Below are positions 2 to 62,419 of a stretch of DNA of 64,000 bases, piece by piece (within the stretch, counting starts at the first letter, position 1; each line of letters starts with the position of its first letter). The notes under the pieces were generated by a model. It was not told where the DNA came from. It saw nothing but the letters and a program-made list of their open reading frames with translations, and did no database searches. The translations under genes were made by a program, and so were the position numbers. Source of the DNA: Streptomyces uncialis (GTDB lineage: Bacteria; Actinomycetota; Actinomycetes; Streptomycetales; Streptomycetaceae); NCBI RefSeq assembly GCF_036250755.1, contig NZ_CP109583.1, positions 2,418,001 to 2,482,000 on the forward strand. The letters run 5' to 3'.

Positions 2-3000
2 GGCGAGGGCTGCGGCGTCCTGGTGCTGATGCGCGAGCGGGACGCCGACGCCGCCGGTCTTGAGGGCCGCGCCGTGCTGACGGGGTGGGGGGTCTCCAGC
101 GACGGCGCGGGCAGCATCACCCGCCCCACGGCCGAGGGGCATCTGCTGGCCGTCCACCGGGCCTACACACTGGCCGGGTACGCGCCCGGGTCCGTCGGCT
201 GCTTCGAGGGGCACGGGACGGGCACCAAGGTCGGTGACACCACGGAACTGGGCGCCCTGTCCACCGCGCACGGCACGGACGGGCCGCCCGCGGTCATCGG
301 CTCGGTCAAGGCCAACATCGGTCACACCAAGGCCGCCGCGGGGGTCGCGGGACTCATCAAGGCGGTCCAGGCGGTACGGCACCGCGTGCTGCCGCCCGCG
401 ACCGGGGTGCGGCTGCCCCATTCGCTGCTGACCGCGCGGGGCCGGTCGCTGCGGCTCGCGGAGCGGCCGGAGGAGTTCCCCGCGGGCCCGGTCCGGGCCG
501 GGGTCTCCGCCATGGGTTTCGGGGGGATCAACACCCATGTCGCCGTCGAGGCGGCCGGGCCGCGTCCGGCGGCCCGTACGGTGGTGCCGCTCGCGGCCCG
601 TACCCCCCAGACGTCCGAACTGCTGGTCCTCGCCGCGGCGGACGGCCCGGCGCTGCGGGAGCGGTGTCTGCGGCTCGCCGCCCTGACCGCGCGGATGTCG
701 TACGCGGAACTCACCGATCTCGCCGCCACCCTGGCCGCCGGGCACAGCGGCCCGGCGCACGGGGCGCGGGGCGCCGTCGTCGCGGCCACCCCCCGGGAGG
801 CGGGCGCCCGGCTGACCCGGCTCGCGGACCTCGCCGTCTCCGGGGCCGGTCAGGTCGTGGACCCGTCGGGCGGGGTGTTCCTCGGCCAGGGCTCCGGACG
901 GCCACGGATCACCCTGCTGCTGCCCGGCCAGGGCGCCCGCGGCGCGGGACAGGCGTTCCGGGCGCGTTTCGACCGGGTGTGGGCCGAGGTCGCGGCCCTC
1001 GGCGGGGCCGGTGTCCAGGACGGCGCGGACACCCGGGTGGCACAGCCGCGCATCGTGTCCGCGTCCCTGGCCGCGCTGCGGGTGCTGACCGGGGTGGGGG
1101 TCGAGGCGGACACCGCGATCGGGCACAGCCTCGGGGAACTGACCGCGCTGCACTGGGCGGGGAGCTTCGACGCCGCGACCCTGCTGCGGCTCGTCGGGCA
1201 CCGCGCGGAGCTCATGGCCGCGGCGCCCGGGGGCGCGGGCGCGATGACCGCGCTGAACGCGGCGGCCGACCGGGTGGAGGAGTGGGCCAAGGGCACCGGG
1301 GCGGTGGTGGCGGCGCTGAACGGGCCCCGGCAGACCGTGGTGTCCGGGCCGCCGCCGGAGGTCGCGGCCGTCACGGCCGCGGCGCGGCGGGAGGGGGTGG
1401 ACGCCACCGCGCTCCAGGTGTCGCACGCGTTCCACTCACCGCAGATGGCCGGGGCCGCGCGGGCCCTCCCGGACGCCCTGGCCGGCGAGCCGGTCGGTCC
1501 TGCGCGGCGGCCGGTCGTCTCCACCGTCACGGGGCGGCTGCTGGGACCCGGCGACGATCTCTCCGCCCTGCTCGCCCGGCAGTTGGTCTCCCCCGTGCTG
1601 TTCGCGCGGGCGGTGGGCGCGGTGGCCGACACCACCGAACTGTTCGTCGAGGCGGGTCCCGGCCACTCCCTCGCGGCGTTCGCCGCGGCATGCGCCCCCG
1701 GGGTGCCGGTGGTCAGCGTCGCCACGGACGCCGCCTCCGTACGGGGGCTGCTGGACGTGGTGGCCGCGGCCCACGCGCTCGGTGCCCCGGTACGGCCGCG
1801 GGTCCTGTTCGACGACCGGCTGACCCGGCCGTTCCCCCTCGACCGGACGTTCCGGTTCCTGACCAACCCCTGCGAGGAGGTACCGCCCGCCCCCGTCGGC
1901 CATGAGCCCCCGCCGAGCGCCGCGGACGGCACGCCCGGGAAGGCCGAGGGCCCGGCGGCCGGGATCGCGGACGCCCCCGCCGACGCGCTCACCGCGCTGC
2001 GGGCGCGTGTCGCGGAGCGGGCGGAGCTGCCGGTGGCGGCGATCGGCCCGGAGCTGGCGCTCCTCGACGACCTCCATCTGAGCTCCATCACGGTCGGTCA
2101 GATCGTGGCGCGCACGGCGGCGGACATCGGTGTGGATCCGCCGGTGGAGATGACCCCGATGGCCACGGCGACGGTCGGCGAGATCGCCGCGCTGCTCTCC
2201 GCCGGGCCGGAGCGCGCCGACGAGGCCGCCTCCGCGCCGGTCCCCGGGGTGGGTTCCTGGGTACGCGGGTACCGGATGGACTGGGCGGCGGACCCGCTGC
2301 CCGCCACCGGCCCGGACACGGAACCGGACACCGCGCCCACCGGTACCGAAGGCTGGCAGGTCGTCGCGGACCCGCGCGACGCGTTGGCCGGTGTGCTGCC
2401 GGCCGCGCTGGCCCGGGTGTCCCGGTCCGGCGGCACCCTGCTGTGCCTGCCCGCACGCGCCGGCGCCGGGACGGCCGGGCTGCTCCTGGCCGCGGCCGGC
2501 GCGGTCAAGGACGACGGTCTGCTGGTCGTGGTCCAGCGCGGCCCGGTGGGCGGCGGCTTCGTCAAGTCGCTGCACCTCGAACGTCCGGCCACCACCGTCT
2601 GTCTGATCACCGTCCCCGGGATCCCGGACGGCGAGCTGCGCGGGGAGCGGTGGGTGTCGCGGCTCGCGGCCGAGACCGCGGCGGCGCGGGGCTTCACCGA
2701 GGCGCGCTATCGCGCCGACGGCACCCGGCTGACCCCCGCGCTGGCCCCGGTCCCGCTCCCGGCCGCGCCGGGGCCCGCGCTCAGCGCCGACGATGTCGTC
2801 CTCGTCACCGGGGGCGGCCGGGGGATCACCGCCGAGTGCGCCCGGATGCTGGCCGCGGGGAGCGGCGGAGCCCGGATCGCCGTCCTGGGACGTACCCGGC
2901 CCGAGGACGACGAATCGCTGCGGGAGAACCTCGCCCGGCTCGGCCCGGACGTGCGGTACACGCGCGCCGATGTCACCGACCCCGAGGCCGTCAGGTCCGC

Positions 3001-56061: not shown

Positions 56062-57534
56062 GTGGCGGCAGCGAACGGCACGGCGGACGCGGACCCGGCG
56101 GCCGACCCGAGCGCGACTCCCGCCCCGGCCGCCGCACCCAGCGCGCTTCTGCGGTTCATGACGTGGCTCGGCCGCAGTGCGGAACTGTTGCACGGGGACA
56201 CGAAGGAATCGCGCCGGCGCCGAATCCGGACCGACCCGCCGGACATCCTGCTCACCACCCCGGAGTCGCTGGAGGCCATGCTCATCGGGGTGAAGACCGA
56301 CCACGCCCAACTGCTCGGCGGTGTATGGGCGGTCGTGGTGGACGAGGTGCACGCCTTCGCCGGGGACGACCGCGGCTGGCATCTGCTGGCCGTACTGGAG
56401 CGGCTGGAACGGGTCACGGGACGCCCCATCCAGCGGATCGGACTCTCCGCCACCGTCGGCAACCCCGAGCGGCAGATGACCTGGCTGCAGGGGGCGGGCG
56501 CGGGGAAGCGTCCGGGCCGGGCCATCGCCCCCGGCCTCGCCGGTCCGGGCGACGCCGGAGGGACCGCCGCGCCGCCCCCGGGCAAGGTGGAACCGCACCG
56601 TCGCCTCGTTCCTCCAGCGCATCGGTGGACCGGAAGGCGGCCGGGCAGTACGCGCAACTGTCTGCTGCTCGCCACCACGAAGGACACCCTGCTCCAAGCC
56701 GCCGCGCTGCTGCTCCGGGGCCGGGGCTGGGTCGAGGCGGTGACACCGCCGCCCGAGCCCCGCCACCTCGTGGCGCAGCAGCTCCTGGCGGCGACCTTGC
56801 AGGAGCACCGGGTGGGCGACCAGCTGTGGCCCGCGCAGTTCACGGTGCTGGCGGGCCGCAAGGAGATCGGGCAGACCGCCCCTTCCGTCCTGACCGAGGA
56901 ACGGCCGGGTCCCCGGGGGCTGCTGCTCGGCGGGCGGAGCTGGCAGGTGACGTTCGTCGACTGGGGCCGCAAGCGCGTCTTCGTCGAGCCGGCCGACGGC
57001 GGCGGGGTCGCCAAGTGGACGAGCGGATCGGTGGCCGGACTGTCTCACACCCTGGCCCGGGCCATGCGCGAGGTGCTCCTCGGGGCGGACCCGCCGGTGT
57101 CGCTCACCGGCTGGGCCCGGGCGGGCCTGGAGCAGTGGCGCGACGAGGACGCTCCTGAGACGGTCCATCCCGGCGGGAGCCTGGTCACCCGCCACGGAAC
57201 CGATGTGCGCTGGTGGACCTGGGCGGGCCATCGTGCGAACGCGACCCTCGCGGCGACACTCCCGTCCGTCTCGGACCCGGTCCAGCGGCCGACCGACTGC
57301 TGGGTGCGTCTGCGCGAGGACGCGACCCCCGAGCTGTGGCGCGCGGCCCGTGAAGGGGCCGAGGGAGGCAACGCTCTGGTGCTCCCGGACGTCGACCCGC
57401 GCGCGGTGCGGGGGCTGAAGTTCTCGGCGGCCCTCTCCCAGCGGCTCGCGGTGTCCACGCTCGCCGCCAGGCTCGCCGACTTCGAAGGAGTACGGGCGGC
57501 GCTCGCCGAGCCGGTGCGGTTCGAGAGCCGCTGA
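56062..57534 (+). pseudogene. Decayed Lhr/DEAD-box-type helicase
   Basis: A frame with helicase remnants. Recognisable parts are the DEVH box (AVVVDEVHAFAGDDRGWHLL, near nt 56330), the SAT motif (RIGLSATVGNPERQMTWL, near nt 56440) and the Lhr-like region TGRRPGSTRNCLLLATTKDT with AALLLRGRGWVEAVTPPPEP. The N-terminal Walker A portion is missing (the sequence starts right after repeat copy C). The stretch from 56490 to 56587 replaces most of helicase domain 2. In a neighbouring frame (56588-56629) sequence WNRTVASFLQRIG supplies the missing motif VI, so a frameshift separates it from the continuation. Deletion plus frameshift plus truncation show it is inactive. Confidence 0.8.
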
Positions 57535-57594
57535 CCGCTCCGGGACCCGCCGCGGGCAGCCCCCGGCCGACGGCCCGGCGTCGAGGACTGGTTC

Positions 57595-57707
57595 TAGAAT
57601 GACGGGAACCTACTCAGCGGCCCGACAGGCTTCCGCTCCACCCCGGTGGACTTCGAGGACACGCCCCCACCCGCACGAGTCACTTCGTGCTGCCTGGGGG
57701 CGATCTC
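57595..57707 (+). promoter_or_regulatory. Promoter and conserved hairpin leader of DUF2075 gene 1
   Basis: TAGAAT (57595-57600) is a good -10 box. The ~107-nt leader contains GCGGCCCGACAGGCTTCC (57618-57635) and a two-stem hairpin. In it GCCCCCA (57663-57669) pairs with TGGGGGC (57695-57701), and GCACGA (57673-57678) pairs with TCGTGC (57685-57690). TGGGGGC includes the ribosome binding site for the start at 57708. The same elements precede the second DUF2075 gene. Confidence 0.6.
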
Positions 57708-59579
57708 TTGCTGTTCCGTGAGTCCGCGACGTCCATCGCGGGACGTACCCGCCTCGAAGGACGACTCGCGGAGCTCCTCACCGAGAACTTCCTGCACAAG
57801 CACCGCCACCGGCCGCACCCTTCGGAGGTACGTTCCTGGGAGCGCAGCATCCCGGCGCTCACCAACGCGCTGGTCGAGGCCGGGCTCGGTGAGGTCGAGA
57901 TGCTGCTGGAGTACGCCCTGCCCCTGACCAGCAAGCGGGCGGACGTGATACTCGCCGGGGTGCATCCGGTCACGGGCGGTCCGTCGTACGTGGTGGTGGA
58001 GCTCAAGCAGTGGAGCGAGGCGCATCCGGAGGAGGATGATCCGCTGCGGTGCCGGATCGACGCGTACCCCGAGCCCGTCCTCAACCCCATCGAGCAGGTG
58101 CGGGGCTACTGCGACTACCTCCTGTCGTTCAACGGCGCGCTGGAGCACGTTCCCGAGTCGGTGGCCGGGGTGGCGTACCTGCACAACGCGACCGAGTTCG
58201 GAGTGACGGGGCTGCGCCTTGTCACGGAGGACCACCGGGGGCGGATGTATACCGGCGAGCAGCGTGGGGCCTTCCTGGACTATCTGCGCTCGCTGCTGGC
58301 GCCGAAGGCGGGGGCCGACGCGGCCGACGCGTTGCTCCAGGGCAAGGTCCGCCCGTCCCGGCAGCTGATGGCGGTCGCCGCCGAGGAGGTGCGCGACCGG
58401 GAACAGTTCGTCCTGCTGGCCGACCAGCGGCTCGCCTACGCGACGGTGATGTCGGCCGTCCAGAAGGCGCGGCGGTCCGACCACAAGGAAGTGGTGGTGG
58501 TGGCCGGCGGACCGGGTTCCGGCAAGAGCGTGATCGCGCTGTCCCTGCTCGGAGAGCTGTACCGGCGGGGGGTGCCCGCCCTGCACGCGACGGGATCGCA
58601 GTCGTTCACCAAGACGATGCGCAAGGTCGCCGGGGCCCGGAAGCCCGAGGTCCAGCGGCTCTTCCGTTACTTCAACAGCTTCATGGAGGCGGAGCCCAAC
58701 GACCTCGACGTGCTCGTCTGCGACGAGGCCCACCGGCTGCGCAAGACCTCCGTCAACCGCTACACCAAGGCCGAGCTGCGCACCGGCCGTCCGCAGGTGG
58801 CGGAGCTGATGGACGCTGCCCGGGTGCCGGTGTTCCTGCTGGACCAGCACCAGGTGGTGCGTCCTGGCGAGATGGGAACGGTGGAGCAGATCGAGGAGGC
58901 CGCCGCGGCGAAAGAGCTGAAGTGCACGGTCGTGCGTCTGGACAGCCAGTTCCGGTGCGGTGGCAGCGACGCGTATCTGGCGTGGGTCACGGGCCTGCTG
59001 GGCCTGGAGGGCGACGGGCCCGTCCTCTGGGAGCCGGACGGCAAGGTGGGGCTGCTGACCGTGGACGGCCCGCGGGAACTCGAGGAGTTCCTCGTCGCAC
59101 GACGGGCCGAGGGCTACGGGGCCAGGATGTCGGCGGGTTACTGCTGGAAATGGACGACGAAGATCACTCCGGACATGACGGCACTGCCCGCCGACGTGGT
59201 CATCGGCGACTGGGCCAGGCCATGGAACCTGTACGGGGACCGCGCCTTGCTCGGTGCGCCACCCGCTCCCCTGTGGGCCACCGATCCCGCAGGTTTCGGA
59301 CAGGTGGGGTGCGTGTACACCGCGCAGGGCTTCGAGTACGACTGGTCCGGCGTGATCATGGGCCCGGATCTGGTCTGGCGGACCGACCGCTGGGTCGTGG
59401 ACCGCACCGCGTCCAAGGACCCCTCCTTCACCAAGGCGACCCCGGACGAGGACATCGACCGGCTGGTCCGCAACACCTACAAGGTACTGCTGACCCGGGG
59501 CATGATCGGAACGATCGTCTACTCGACCGACCCGGAGACCCGCGAGAAGCTCCGCTCGCTGATCCCTCCGGCCGGGTAA
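57708..59579 (+). CDS. DUF2075-type nuclease-helicase fusion 1
   Basis: A 623-aa protein if started at TTG 57708, which follows GGGGG by 7 nt. GTG 57687 would put the start inside the leader hairpin. The N-terminal domain has a PD-(D/E)xK-type core: SKRADVILAG and VVVELKQW (D...ExK). The C-terminal part is a superfamily 1-like NTPase/helicase of the DUF2075 family: Walker A AGGPGSGKSVIALSL, Walker B VLVCDEAHRL, DQHQVVRPGE, QFRCGGSDAYL, GCVYTAQGFEYDWSGVIMG and NTYKVLLTRG. Such fusions suggest a DNA/RNA-processing or defence role, not established. It is downstream of the decayed helicase and convergent with its paralogue. Confidence 0.85.
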   Translation: MLFRESATSIAGRTRLEGRLAELLTENFLHKHRHRPHPSEVRSWERSIPALTNALVEAGLGEVEMLLEYALPLTSKRADVILAGVHPVTGGPSYVVVELKQWSEAHPEEDDPLRCRIDAYPEPVLNPIEQVRGYCDYLLSFNGALEHVPESVAGVAYLHNATEFGVTGLRLVTEDHRGRMYTGEQRGAFLDYLRSLLAPKAGADAADALLQGKVRPSRQLMAVAAEEVRDREQFVLLADQRLAYATVMSAVQKARRSDHKEVVVVAGGPGSGKSVIALSLLGELYRRGVPALHATGSQSFTKTMRKVAGARKPEVQRLFRYFNSFMEAEPNDLDVLVCDEAHRLRKTSVNRYTKAELRTGRPQVAELMDAARVPVFLLDQHQVVRPGEMGTVEQIEEAAAAKELKCTVVRLDSQFRCGGSDAYLAWVTGLLGLEGDGPVLWEPDGKVGLLTVDGPRELEEFLVARRAEGYGARMSAGYCWKWTTKITPDMTALPADVVIGDWARPWNLYGDRALLGAPPAPLWATDPAGFGQVGCVYTAQGFEYDWSGVIMGPDLVWRTDRWVVDRTASKDPSFTKATPDEDIDRLVRNTYKVLLTRGMIGTIVYSTDPETREKLRSLIPPAG

Positions 59580-59868
59580 GCACCCGGCCGCGCAGGCCAC
59601 CGGCCCTCCGATGGGGGCCGACGGGAGTGCCGTCCGGGGCCGGCGGATGAGCTGCGGACCGGAGTTGTCCCCTCAACCGCAACTTTCCCTTGCGGTATCG
59701 TGAGTTCACGCTGCGCACCTTCCCGGAGGGTACGTCGGCGGAGTTCCGGTGCTGGTCCTCGGCCGTGACTGACGAGTGGTTTCCATCGCGTGCTTCACGT
59801 GGTGTGACTGCGGATGCCCGGTAGGGCTGTCCCTGCCATTCCCAGCTCACGCCAAGGAGTGGTCACGT
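59580..59868. promoter_or_regulatory. 289-bp region with inverted repeat upstream of small membrane protein
   Basis: ACCGCAA-CTTTCCC-TTGCGGT (59676-59696) is a perfect 7-bp stem with 7-nt loop, about 100 nt after the DUF2075 stop, serving as terminator or operator. The region upstream of 59869 is less GC-rich (TTGCGGTATCGTGAGTTCAC) and probably holds the promoter of the small gene. AAGGAG precedes its ATG. Confidence 0.45.
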
Positions 59869-59997
59869 ATGAACCCCGTTGAGTACAAGCCCGCACGTCG
59901 TCACCGGTTTCGCGAGATCCTGGTCGACGTCGCTGTCGGTGTCGTCGCCAATCTTGTGGTGGCGGCTCTGACCGTGGCAGCGCGCCTGGTCTTCTGA
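59869..59997 (+). CDS. 42-aa small membrane protein
   Basis: The ATG at 59869 has AAGGAG 9 nt upstream and encodes 42 residues: a basic N-terminal region (KPARRHRFREIL) followed by one hydrophobic helix (VDVAVGVVANLVVAALTVAA) and a short end (RLVF). The arrangement is that of a single-span membrane peptide with cytoplasmic N-terminus. It lies between two convergent DUF2075 nuclease-helicase genes and could be a toxin-like effector, an anchor or an unrelated peptide. No homologue is recognised; the coding call rests on the ribosome binding site and amphipathic/hydrophobic pattern. Confidence 0.55.
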   Translation: MNPVEYKPARRHRFREILVDVAVGVVANLVVAALTVAARLVF

Positions 59998-60052
59998 CCG
60001 GGCAGGTGGCGGGCCCGGCGAGCCCGCCACTCCCTCTCTTCCCGCCGCTCCG

Positions 60053-62173
60053 TCAGAACAGCCGCAGTTCGGGTTCCTGGGGACCGGACTGCCCACGGTT
60101 GCGGCGCGAGCGCCTTCCTCGCCTGGGCCTGGGCAGATGCGGGACGCGTGCTTCCTGAGGCAGGTTCTGCCAGGTGGGGCGAAGTCCGTGGATCTCGACC
60201 GGACCGACGAGCGTCCGCAGATGATCCCGGGTCTCCTCGTCCGTGGAGTAGAGCACCGTGGCGCGGCTCGCCCGGGTCATCAGCACGTGATAGGCGTGAC
60301 GGACGAGCCGGGCGAACTCCTGGTCGTCTACGCTTCCGGCCTTCACCTTGGGGTCGAACGAGCCGGGCCGGGCCACTCGCTTGGCGTCCGACTCAGGGTC
60401 CTTTCGGTCCTTGCCCCGGTTGAACACCCATCGGCCGTCGCGGCGCACCATGTCCTCACCCATGATGACGCCGCACCAGTCCCACTCGAGGCCCTGCGCC
60501 GTGTACACACAGCCGATCTGACCGAGACCGTTCTCGTGCACGGACCAGATCTTCGACGGGGGCGCGTCGTTCTCGCAGAAGCTCTCGCTGTCCGCGTTCC
60601 ACGGCCGGTGCCAGTCACCGATGCGGACATCGTCCTCCAGTCGCCTCTCCTCGCCCAGCGGCTTCGTCCAGGGCCAGCAGTATCCGGCGACCATACGGGC
60701 GGAGGCCCCGGCGAGGGCTTCGGTACGGATGATGTCCTCGAGCTCCGCCGGAGTCTCCGCCACCTCGATGTGCATCAGCCCGTCAGGAGTCCAAGGGTCC
60801 AGCACCTCGTCCGTCACACCGAGCAGCCCGCGTACCCAGCGGATGTAGGCGTCGCTGCCGCCGCATCGGTACTGCTCCCGGAGGCCGTACTCCACGACCC
60901 GGGCACCGCGCCGCTGGCCGGCGTCCTTGATCAGGCCGACGGTGCCGACCTCGTTCGGACGGACGCACTGCCCCTCGTCGAGGAAGAACACGGTCAGGCG
61001 CGACGCGTCGAGCAACTCGTCCACCTGAGGCTGTGTGCCCTGGTCCTCGGGCTTCCAGAAGCGGCTGGTGGACCGGTCACGCAGGCGGTGCGCCTCGTCG
61101 CAGATCAAGACGTCCAAGAGCGGGTCCGGCGGGGTGACGAAGCTGCTGAAGTAGGTGAACGTCTCCCTGAACTCCCGGTCGCCGTAGCCGACGTGTTCCT
61201 GGAGCGCACCGTTGAAGGCCCTGCTGCCGCTCGCGTACTTGACCGTCCGCCCCTGGCCCTCCAGCTCCGCCTTCACCTGGAGCCCGATGGCGCTCTTGCC
61301 GGTACCGGCGCCCCCGGTCACCAGGAAGATCACGCGCTGCTCGTCCGGGATCAAGGCGGGGTGGGTAGAGGACGGCAGGACTCGTTCGGCGGCGTTCAGG
61401 ATGTGGTCGGCGACTGTCTTCTGCCGCCCGCGCAGAGTGAACACGGTGTCGAGTCCCTCCGACCAGATCATGGCGTCCAGCAGGGGGGTGTTGCGCAGTC
61501 CCATCCTTCTCATGAGGCTCTCAGCGGCGGCGGCGCTGCCCTCCGGGGCGAAGTGCGTCCGCAGGTCGGCCAAGAGCTCTTCGCGCCGGTCACCCGTGTA
61601 CACGGGTGCATAGACGCCGGTCGGAGCGTCCACATCGGTCAGGGGCCGCGCGGAGGAGTCCGTGGCATTGTGCAGATAGGCGAATCCCCCGCACTCGAAG
61701 TCGCTCCCGTACAAGGGCCCTTTGTCGCTCGTGAAGGCTTCGAAGTACTCGCGCAACTGCAGTGCGGGATGCTTCTTGGCTCCCATTCCCTCCACATACA
61801 GCAGCTCCGCGGTGGCATGCTCCACCCTGGTCACCATCGACCAGCGTTTCAACTCGACAAGTTGTACGGACAGCCGATGTTCCAGCGGATGCTGTCCCAC
61901 GAGGACGACATCGATGAGACGAGGATCCCCCGGGCGGTCGGTCTCGTCGAGCGTGGCGGCGCACTCCACGATCATCTCGACGTTCCCACGGTCGGCGGCG
62001 ACCAGGTCCGAAGCGAGGCTCACCAGGCTCTCCGCCCACGCCGCGCGCTCGGTCTCCGAGGCATCCGCGCCTCTGAAGTGCCGCCATCTGGCGGCGAGAT
62101 GCGGCACCATACGATGCCTCGAGTTCAGGGTGAGCAGATCCTGCGCCGCCAATTTCAGCAGGAGCATGGACAC
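60053..62173 (-). CDS. DUF2075-type nuclease-helicase fusion 2
   Basis: A 706-aa paralogue of the gene at 57708. N-terminal PD-(D/E)xK-like core: PRLIDVVLVG and SVQLVELKRW. Helicase part: Walker A VTGGAGTGKSAIGLQ, Walker B VLICDEAHRLRD, DEGQCVRPNE, QYRCGGSDAYIRW, GCVYTAQGLEWDWCGVIMG and HAYHVLMTRASRA. The C-terminal 30 residues are a basic Arg-rich tail. The start is GTG 62173, 9 nt after GGGGGG; ATG 62167 is 6 nt further. Upstream lies the same leader hairpin as in gene 1. Despite similar architecture the two proteins are clearly divergent, so this is not a recent duplication. Confidence 0.85.
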   Translation of the reverse strand: MSMLLLKLAAQDLLTLNSRHRMVPHLAARWRHFRGADASETERAAWAESLVSLASDLVAADRGNVEMIVECAATLDETDRPGDPRLIDVVLVGQHPLEHRLSVQLVELKRWSMVTRVEHATAELLYVEGMGAKKHPALQLREYFEAFTSDKGPLYGSDFECGGFAYLHNATDSSARPLTDVDAPTGVYAPVYTGDRREELLADLRTHFAPEGSAAAAESLMRRMGLRNTPLLDAMIWSEGLDTVFTLRGRQKTVADHILNAAERVLPSSTHPALIPDEQRVIFLVTGGAGTGKSAIGLQVKAELEGQGRTVKYASGSRAFNGALQEHVGYGDREFRETFTYFSSFVTPPDPLLDVLICDEAHRLRDRSTSRFWKPEDQGTQPQVDELLDASRLTVFFLDEGQCVRPNEVGTVGLIKDAGQRRGARVVEYGLREQYRCGGSDAYIRWVRGLLGVTDEVLDPWTPDGLMHIEVAETPAELEDIIRTEALAGASARMVAGYCWPWTKPLGEERRLEDDVRIGDWHRPWNADSESFCENDAPPSKIWSVHENGLGQIGCVYTAQGLEWDWCGVIMGEDMVRRDGRWVFNRGKDRKDPESDAKRVARPGSFDPKVKAGSVDDQEFARLVRHAYHVLMTRASRATVLYSTDEETRDHLRTLVGPVEIHGLRPTWQNLPQEARVPHLPRPRRGRRSRRNRGQSGPQEPELRLF

Positions 62174-62268
62174 GAGGTGGTTCCCCCCAGGGCACGAGTG
62201 ATTCGTGCGGGTGGGGGCGTGTCCGTGTGAGGAAGCCCGTCGGGCCGCGACCGGTACCGATGATCTTA
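62174..62268 (-). promoter_or_regulatory. Promoter and conserved hairpin leader of DUF2075 gene 2
   Basis: On the minus strand a TAAGAT -10 box (62268-62263) is followed by GCGGCCCGACGGGCTTCC (62248-62231) and the hairpin. CCCCCA (part of 62218-62212) pairs with TGGGGG (62189-62184), and GCACGA (62208-62203) pairs with TCGTGC (62197-62192). TGGGGG is the ribosome binding site. The block GGACACGCCCCCACCCGCAC, continuing as GARTCACT, is shared with gene 1. Confidence 0.6.
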
Positions 62269-62419
62269 GGCAAACCGTCGCGGAAGCCGACAACGCCGTC
62301 CCGTCGCGGACCGGATCGGTGTGGTGGGTGGCTGGATCACGGGGTCGCGGATGGATGACCCCGCAGGGGCACCGGCCCGCGAGCGATGTGCCCCCTCGCG
62401 GCGTTGCGCCGGAGCCGCC

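Follow-up and report, generated by a model that had tools for sequence, protein, structure and literature searches.

Two DUF2075 genes with a shared leader

The window considered here, i.e. the whole 64,000-nucleotide (nt) stretch analysed from Streptomyces uncialis (contig NZ_CP109583.1), carries two Schlafen group 3 (SLFN-g3, DUF2075) genes, termed A and B, each of which is preceded by a copy of the same leader element. The element is roughly 100 bases long and is present in many actinobacteria. Both proteins matched PF09848 (gene A, 293 bits, E = 4.7e-87; gene B, 300 bits, E = 2.8e-89; cut-off 24 bits), and they were the only matches of the genome at E ≤ 0.001. The original prediction, made from the sequence alone, had called the two genes divergent. 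This is true of their sequences only, since genes A and B converge. From the comparison of homologous leaders, we read the start of gene A as TTG 57708 and that of gene B as the GTG/TTG/ATG codon six bases upstream of ATG.

The blocks that had been reported between the -10 box and the start codon of both genes were read directly in the sequence. The 5′ block is GCGGCCCGAC(A/G)GGCTTCC. The second block, GGACACGCCCCCACCCGCACGARTCACT (57657-57684 in leader A and 62224-62197 in leader B), spans 28 nt and contains a single difference between the leaders, whereas the two proteins are only about 37% identical, in line with the earlier remark that the proteins are far less alike than the leaders. The stretch between the blocks is variable (22 nt in leader A, 6 nt in leader B). 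Both leaders also contain the predicted hairpin, with an inner stem GCACGA/TCGTGC and an outer stem CCCCCA/TGGGGG. TGGGGG ends 7 nt upstream of the TTG of gene A, and TGGGGGG ends 9 nt upstream of GTG 62173 of gene B, i.e. at the distances originally given; by its appearance, this run looks like a ribosome-binding site (RBS). The hairpin regions (56 nt in A, 61 nt in B) folded better than all of 200 shuffled sequences (z = -4.7 and -4.0). Longer leaders folded less clearly (120 nt in A, z = -2.1, with 6 of 200 shuffles folding as well; 98 nt in B, z = -1.65, with 16 of 200).

When the 28-mer was searched in the 9.26 Mb genome with up to three mismatches, only these two places were found (none for the reversed-pattern control). 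Exact copies of the 5′ block were likewise confined to them. Allowing two mismatches, the 5′ block occurred at 17 places, and the other 15 were regarded as background because the control gave 31. Thus, the only two leader copies of the genome each stand before one of its two SLFN-g3/DUF2075 genes.

In 97.6% of 127 distinct upstream sequences (nearly all from Streptomyces), a TANNNT box precedes the block by 16-30 nt, compared with a mean of 9.6% and a maximum of 18.1% in shuffled upstreams; the real boxes typically lie 20-22 nt before GCGG. The leader is therefore probably transcribed, and from this position the 5′ end of the RNA would fall a few bases upstream of the element.

Distribution of the element

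Within the genus, a 26-mer pattern with up to three mismatches was found in 53 of 295 genomes, and a slightly broader pattern in 34 of 150 genomes of the family, spread over 9 of 17 genera. Reversed patterns gave no match in the genomes listed. Of 394 genomes of the class, 41 contain the element according to a covariance model (R1), and these represent 24 of the 137 genera. With a core-only model (R2), matches were obtained in two further orders (34 of 180 genomes in one and 21 of 179 in the other); chance accounts for some of the weakest. Model searches of more than 40 genomes were run with stricter filters, so that weak matches were lost. In a draw of 396 genomes from the phylum, the only two matches that fell outside the class were weak (E = 0.013 and 0.019). 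Both lie within or next to reading frames of the opposite strand or of another frame and were taken as chance. Five matches with E-values of 0.003-0.05 (loci L248, L249, L250, L252, and L269) were also judged to be chance from their surroundings, while others in this range do stand before DUF2075 or EVE-like genes; this reading of contexts covered the weak matches except G1209 and the second match in genome G1400.

Among viral contigs, eight loci carried one block only and scored 14-17 bits or nothing with the model. The sole match in the phage collection was the GenBank entry MT836681 ('Bacteriophage sp.'; L204, 4585-8186), which carries a MazG-like gene, a DUF2075 gene with its leader, and an AspBHI/Mrr-type gene. 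Because of this bacterial-looking gene content, the entry looks like a bacterial chromosome labelled as phage, and we do not claim a phage origin for it. A further copy lies on a large plasmid, S. fungicidicus p1 (L205, 7998-8062), about 7 kb from a drmB (DISARM) gene.

Genes behind the element

We aligned 118 copies of the element (114 distinct sequences; alignment A5) from 100 of 274 loci. The loci had been gathered by the DNA element and not by their genes, and repeats, many near-identical Streptomyces loci and the five chance-read loci were left out. A DUF2075 gene stands behind 100 of these copies and a gene of a second family, EVE-like/HNH, behind 11. Seven have neither: two run off the stored DNA (L081, L262) and five lie beside degraded or unrecognised genes. 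Three rows duplicate places (L207/L262 twice, L231/L274), so that 115 distinct copies divide into 99, 10, and 6, respectively. For the converse view, 80 genomes were surveyed (41 with an R1 match and 39 hand-picked without). By coordinates, 48 of their 53 PF09848 matches of at least 190 bits lie behind an element, and only one of the 39 genomes without an element match (G775) has a PF09848 match of this strength. The covariance search that had been proposed earlier therefore gave matches concentrated before DUF2075 genes, as anticipated.

For all 10 distinct copies of the EVE type, a DUF2075 gene or the remnant of one is present at a distance of about 2 kb or less. Outside the Streptomycetaceae, a gene for a MazG-like nucleotide pyrophosphohydrolase (Pfam) was found no more than 200 nt from 28 of 74 DUF2075-type copies, divergent in 19 cases and co-oriented in nine (the L207/L262 place being counted twice). 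In L204, the gene for the AspBHI/Mrr-type modification-dependent enzyme directly follows the DUF2075 gene. The leader likely groups DUF2075, EVE-like/HNH, and MazG-like genes as one functional group.

Where DUF2075 genes are paired, there is one leader copy per gene. Besides tandem and convergent pairs, divergent ones exist, with back-to-back leaders each preceding its own DUF2075-type gene: 1457-1576 (-) and 2137-2253 (+) in L129, and 1457-1558 (-) and 1701-1801 (+) in L130. In L017, L029, L103, L104 (6361, -), and L177 (393-487), intact or partly decayed leaders were seen with no DUF2075-like gene recognised behind them.

A second fold pairs the two blocks

Beyond the hairpin of the original prediction, the leader offers a second fold, in which the 5′ block pairs with the 3′ block (GCGG..GGC.UCC against GGA.GCC..CCGC). 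It consists of P1 (GCGG:CCGC), P2 (GGC:GCC), and P3 (UCC:GGA). Its internal loop, of the CGAC type, hardly varies, and P3 differs in length between copies. We refer to this sensor-like domain as the sensor. In 42 sequences aligned without structure, 98.1% of sensor cells pair and five of ten pairs change on both sides. In A5, 98.2% of cells pair, although A5 was aligned to the model and its pairing leans towards it; seven of ten pairs and 21 cells are changed on both sides (1.1 in shuffles, with none of 500 reaching this value), and pairing drops to 31-60% in slid registers. On a tree of 112 distinct rows, with an eleventh pair included, we counted 11 coincident pair-keeping substitutions compared with 0.79 ± 0.89 in simulations, and a paired fraction of 97.3% compared with 89.6%; neither value was reached in 300 simulations. 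Compensated pairs include GGAC:GUCC (L138, L178), GAGC:GCUC (L244), AAGC:GCUU (L241), and UCGG:CCGA (L184). In 46 longer P3 loops, the arms matched their own partner better than permuted ones (0 of 300).

Features of the two leaders and genes in the window
Feature	Coordinates	Strand	Basis
-10-like box TAGAAT of gene A, 22 nt before GCGG	57595..57600	+	sequence; TANNNT survey
Leader A, 5′ block (5′ strands of P1 GCGG, P2 GGC, P3 UCC)	57617..57634	+	sequence, structure counts
Leader A, variable apical P3 region	57635..57656	+	length varies between elements, arms remain complementary
Leader A, 3′ block (3′ strands of P3, P2, P1), also 5′ strand of RBS-hiding hairpin	57657..57674	+	
Leader A, sequestering hairpin	57664..57700	+	folding, pair counts
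Leader A, hairpin outer stem CCCCCA/TGGGGG	57664-57669 / 57695-57700	+	
Leader A, hairpin inner stem GCACGA/TCGTGC	57673-57678 / 57685-57690	+	
Gene A, PD-(D/E)XK-like nuclease and SLFN-g3 (DUF2075) superfamily 1 (SF1) helicase, 623 amino acids from TTG	57708..59579	+	
Gene B, SLFN-g3 (DUF2075) paralogue, 706 amino acids from GTG 62173	60053..62173	-	PF09848; start from leader comparison
Leader B, sequestering hairpin	62183..62217	-	folding
Leader B, hairpin outer stem CCCCCA/TGGGGGG	62217-62212 / 62189-62183	-	
Leader B, hairpin inner stem GCACGA/TCGTGC	62208-62203 / 62197-62192	-	
Leader B, 3′ block	62207..62224	-	sequence
Leader B, 5′ block	62231..62248	-	sequence
-10-like box TAAGAT of gene B, 20 nt before GCGG	62263..62268	-	sequence; TANNNT survey

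The RBS-hiding hairpin

Pairing in the hairpin was counted in 87 of 104 listed DUF2075-type leaders, aligned without structure. Here, 88.9% of cells pair, and the paired changes that had been foreseen were found, with 21 double-changed cells compared with 5.7 in shuffles (0 of 500 as high). Pairs with a double change numbered six, compared with 3.5 in shuffles (a number reached by 12 of 500). For the closing A-U, the paired share is only 59%. EVE-type leaders rebuild the hairpin in other letters, namely as GACAUGCCUC:GAGGUAUGUC in L272 and as GACAUGCC:GGCAUGUC in L273. An outer stem that always pairs with the start codon was also considered. Such a stem is present in many Streptomyces leaders, including those of the window (AAGGAC/GTCCTT in A, GGACACG/CGTGTCC in B), but the rule does not hold in general.

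These data bear on whether the element acts as DNA, its palindromic parts binding a transcription factor or marking a recombination or insertion site. The inverted repeats, the nearby -10 box, and a sporadic presence in about one fifth of genomes, which suggests mobility, would suit such a role. Nevertheless, 111 of the 118 copies have a recognised gene and lie on its strand just upstream of it, pairs are kept through G-U and two-sided changes while the length of P3 varies, the RBS pairing is rebuilt in other letters before EVE-like genes, and the genome of the window has only two copies, each at a gene. A DNA operator is therefore highly improbable.

The hairpin uses as its 5′ strand the same nucleotides that form the 3′ strand of P2 and P1, and the sensor and hairpin folds are therefore mutually exclusive. 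Forcing the sensor made the first G-rich run more accessible by over 0.2 in 73 of 109 leaders; in one leader, its accessibility fell.

Encoded proteins and neighbouring genes

In the protein of gene A, D79 is invariant and E98 and K100 are nearly so, which fits the motif of an N-terminal PD-(D/E)XK nuclease; the helicase part has Walker A K273 and DE at 339-340. A structure model built with 24 sequences reached a mean predicted local distance difference test (pLDDT) score of 88.2. The shared core also stands before genes for DUF2075 proteins with no more than 37-44% identity to gene A. In the second gene family, HNH_2 was detected in three of six scanned sequences, two of the other three being partial; the family thus has the HNH nuclease domain of EVE-HNH enzymes. 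Pfam EVE exceeded its cut-off in none of the six, with one sub-threshold match (17.8 bits compared with 23, E = 0.0035).

A role of the DUF2075 genes in anti-phage defence is predicted. PADLOC gave only partial or weak matches (PDC-S41, Nhi, AbiO, mad8). Upstream of leader A, at 56062-57534 (+), lies a BrxHI-like DEAD-box helicase sequence (PADLOC E = 2e-147) whose best stretch corresponds to the C-terminal part of the profile only, which suggests a decayed BREX-type neighbour. A 42-amino-acid microprotein (MNPVEYKPARR...) with a hydrophobic C-terminal half is encoded at 59869-59994 (+). It was found in 38 loci; in 37 of them, its gene converges on the 3′ end of the closest DUF2075 gene. The microprotein may be a small membrane component that belongs to the Streptomyces form of the system.

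A two-state leader as the favoured explanation

The features described above would suit a translational riboswitch: (i) a structured domain, covarying in aggregate, is kept across distant taxa; (ii) an expression platform exclusive with it covers the RBS; and (iii) the element stands before a functionally coherent set of genes. We consider it rather probable that the element is a two-state translational leader, OFF by default and opened by a signal that binds the sensor. Without the signal, the more stable hairpin would win, the RBS would be buried, and translation would be low. The signal would bind and hold P1-P3 while the RNA is being made, leaving the RBS free, and the nuclease would then be produced. 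Most likely, this signal would be a small molecule that arises during infection or DNA stress, and a nucleotide is one possibility. We infer that the folds form in the cell, that the switch runs in this direction, and that the bound partner is a small molecule and not the encoded protein. The functional RNA leader of the original prediction is thus supported by its link to the genes and by paired changes, while its regulatory action is a prediction.

Several observations weigh against this explanation. Covariation in the sensor is significant in aggregate only: in neither of two tests with tree simulations did any single pair reach significance (best E = 1.5 and 3.1), and the 37 double-changed cells exceed the 7.7 expected on the tree but were reached in 3 of 300 simulations. 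The eleventh pair (columns 17-45) was added after it had topped the per-pair ranking, which favours the tree count. For the hairpin, the 3′ block scored 17.8 against its own downstream partner, 16.9 against foreign and 15.3 against shuffled ones, and only 11% of rows beat 95% of foreign partners; this comparison gives weak support, as any G-run can serve as a partner for a C-run. In 36 of 109 leaders, forcing the sensor brought a gain in RBS accessibility of at most 0.2 (35 changed by no more than 0.2 and one fell), and in the leaders of the window accessibility went from 0.00 to 0.15 (A) and from 0.09 to 0.11 (B). Five of the 53 strong PF09848 matches have no element (G775, three in G781, and one in G480 that is cut by the contig end), and a rescan of the DNA before these five genes with R2 found nothing. 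The three leaderless genes of G781 (L256, L257, L258) indicate that the DUF2075 family is not uniformly under the leader.

Another difficulty concerns stability, as the sensor-forced fold was less stable than the free fold in 116 of 116 leaders, by a mean of 15 kcal/mol. Since this exceeds what a ligand at equilibrium could offset, timing during transcription must matter. The same figures, i.e. a very stable hairpin that always wins in free folding, would be expected of a static leader or RNA thermometer, in which the hairpin sets a low, possibly temperature-dependent rate of translation and the 5′ domain binds nothing. Such a leader would leave unexplained why the 5′ block, which lies outside the hairpin, is conserved and why its pairs change together, and we regard this possibility as very doubtful.

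The core is so conserved that protein binding would account for it equally well. Under autoregulation, the DUF2075 protein or a partner would bind P1-P3 or the hairpin of its own mRNA and set its translation. The genes behind the leader encode predicted nucleic-acid enzymes, all distinct EVE-type copies are near a DUF2075 gene or remnant, and paired loci have one copy per gene, all of which would suit autoregulation, and leaders bound by the protein they encode are a common kind according to PMC11109978. On the other hand, the same core precedes both DUF2075 proteins that have diverged from gene A and unrelated EVE-like/HNH nucleases, and folding that is OFF by default would suit activation better than repression. 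We hold autoregulation to be somewhat unlikely.

A bolder version of the two-state leader is that it represents a new actinobacterial riboswitch class, an RNA immune sensor responding to a nucleotide signal linked to infection (for instance a pyrimidine nucleotide that is modified or out of balance) and freeing the translation of nucleases against modified foreign DNA. It fits the company of genes (EVE-like/HNH genes with their own copy, AspBHI/Mrr in L204, MazG-like genes at 28 of 74 copies), and the theme of modified DNA and nucleotides among them makes a nucleotide signal an attractive guess. As a whole we consider this version unlikely, and it is offered as speculation. To our knowledge, discussions of how anti-phage genes are regulated usually centre on protein regulators, apart from CRISPR loci. 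The leader, with its two competing folds, was found in dozens of actinobacterial genera before two nuclease families. If the two-state explanation is true, it would open a testable route to how anti-phage nuclease genes stay silent until needed, and a ligand, if there is one, would name the alarm signal. As a marker of the DUF2075, EVE-like/HNH, and MazG-like group, the leader also helps in finding the function of the system.

Comparison with known systems

The helicase fold of gene A is shared with Schlafen group 3 (PF09848) proteins and with RecD2, SLFN11, and Dna2, which the structure model resembles. With template-modelling (TM) scores of about 0.3, this likeness holds at the level of domains only, and no relative was detected (up to E = 0.01) when the sequence of gene A was searched against solved structures. 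A member of the second family matched 6yex_A over its nuclease half (residues 152-234, E = 1.4e-4). VcaM4I is an EVE-HNH modification-dependent restriction enzyme (PMC7897488), and we take 6yex to be its structure. The likeness is borne out by the Pfam HNH_2 match of the same half, while the modification-binding half of the family is, unlike that of VcaM4I, only EVE-like (below the cut-off, in one of six). Contexts of EVE domains are covered in PMC7641849, and a term search of its main text found no mention of DUF2075, MazG, or riboswitches.

Searches against Rfam 15 gave no match up to E = 1 in the window at 57500-62400 and none up to E = 0.5 in 10 diverse loci. Among the matches listed from the open-licence PubMed Central (PMC) literature, none described such a leader, which agrees with the earlier statement that no element of this kind was known before DUF2075 genes. 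The term DUF2075 itself occurs in five papers of this literature, and from their listing none deals with the leader.

Translational riboswitches are leaders in which the binding of a metabolite exposes or hides the Shine-Dalgarno site. The present element resembles them in that a 5′ sensor-like domain shares a strand with the sequestering hairpin, in its fixed place before a small set of genes, and in a hairpin sequence more variable than the sensor. It differs in lacking an Rfam match and in preceding nuclease-type defence genes instead of genes for metabolism or transport. Streptomyces leader motifs found, like this one, by comparative genomics include dauA, livJ, pntA, and asfR (PMC11109978). 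They precede other genes, and in the main text of that article no words beginning with 'restriction', 'defense', or 'DUF' occur; the dauA motif likewise embraces the Shine-Dalgarno site. Thus, while the element itself has no Rfam family and no description among the literature matches listed, its proposed mechanism is of a known kind, that of a leader which hides the Shine-Dalgarno site.

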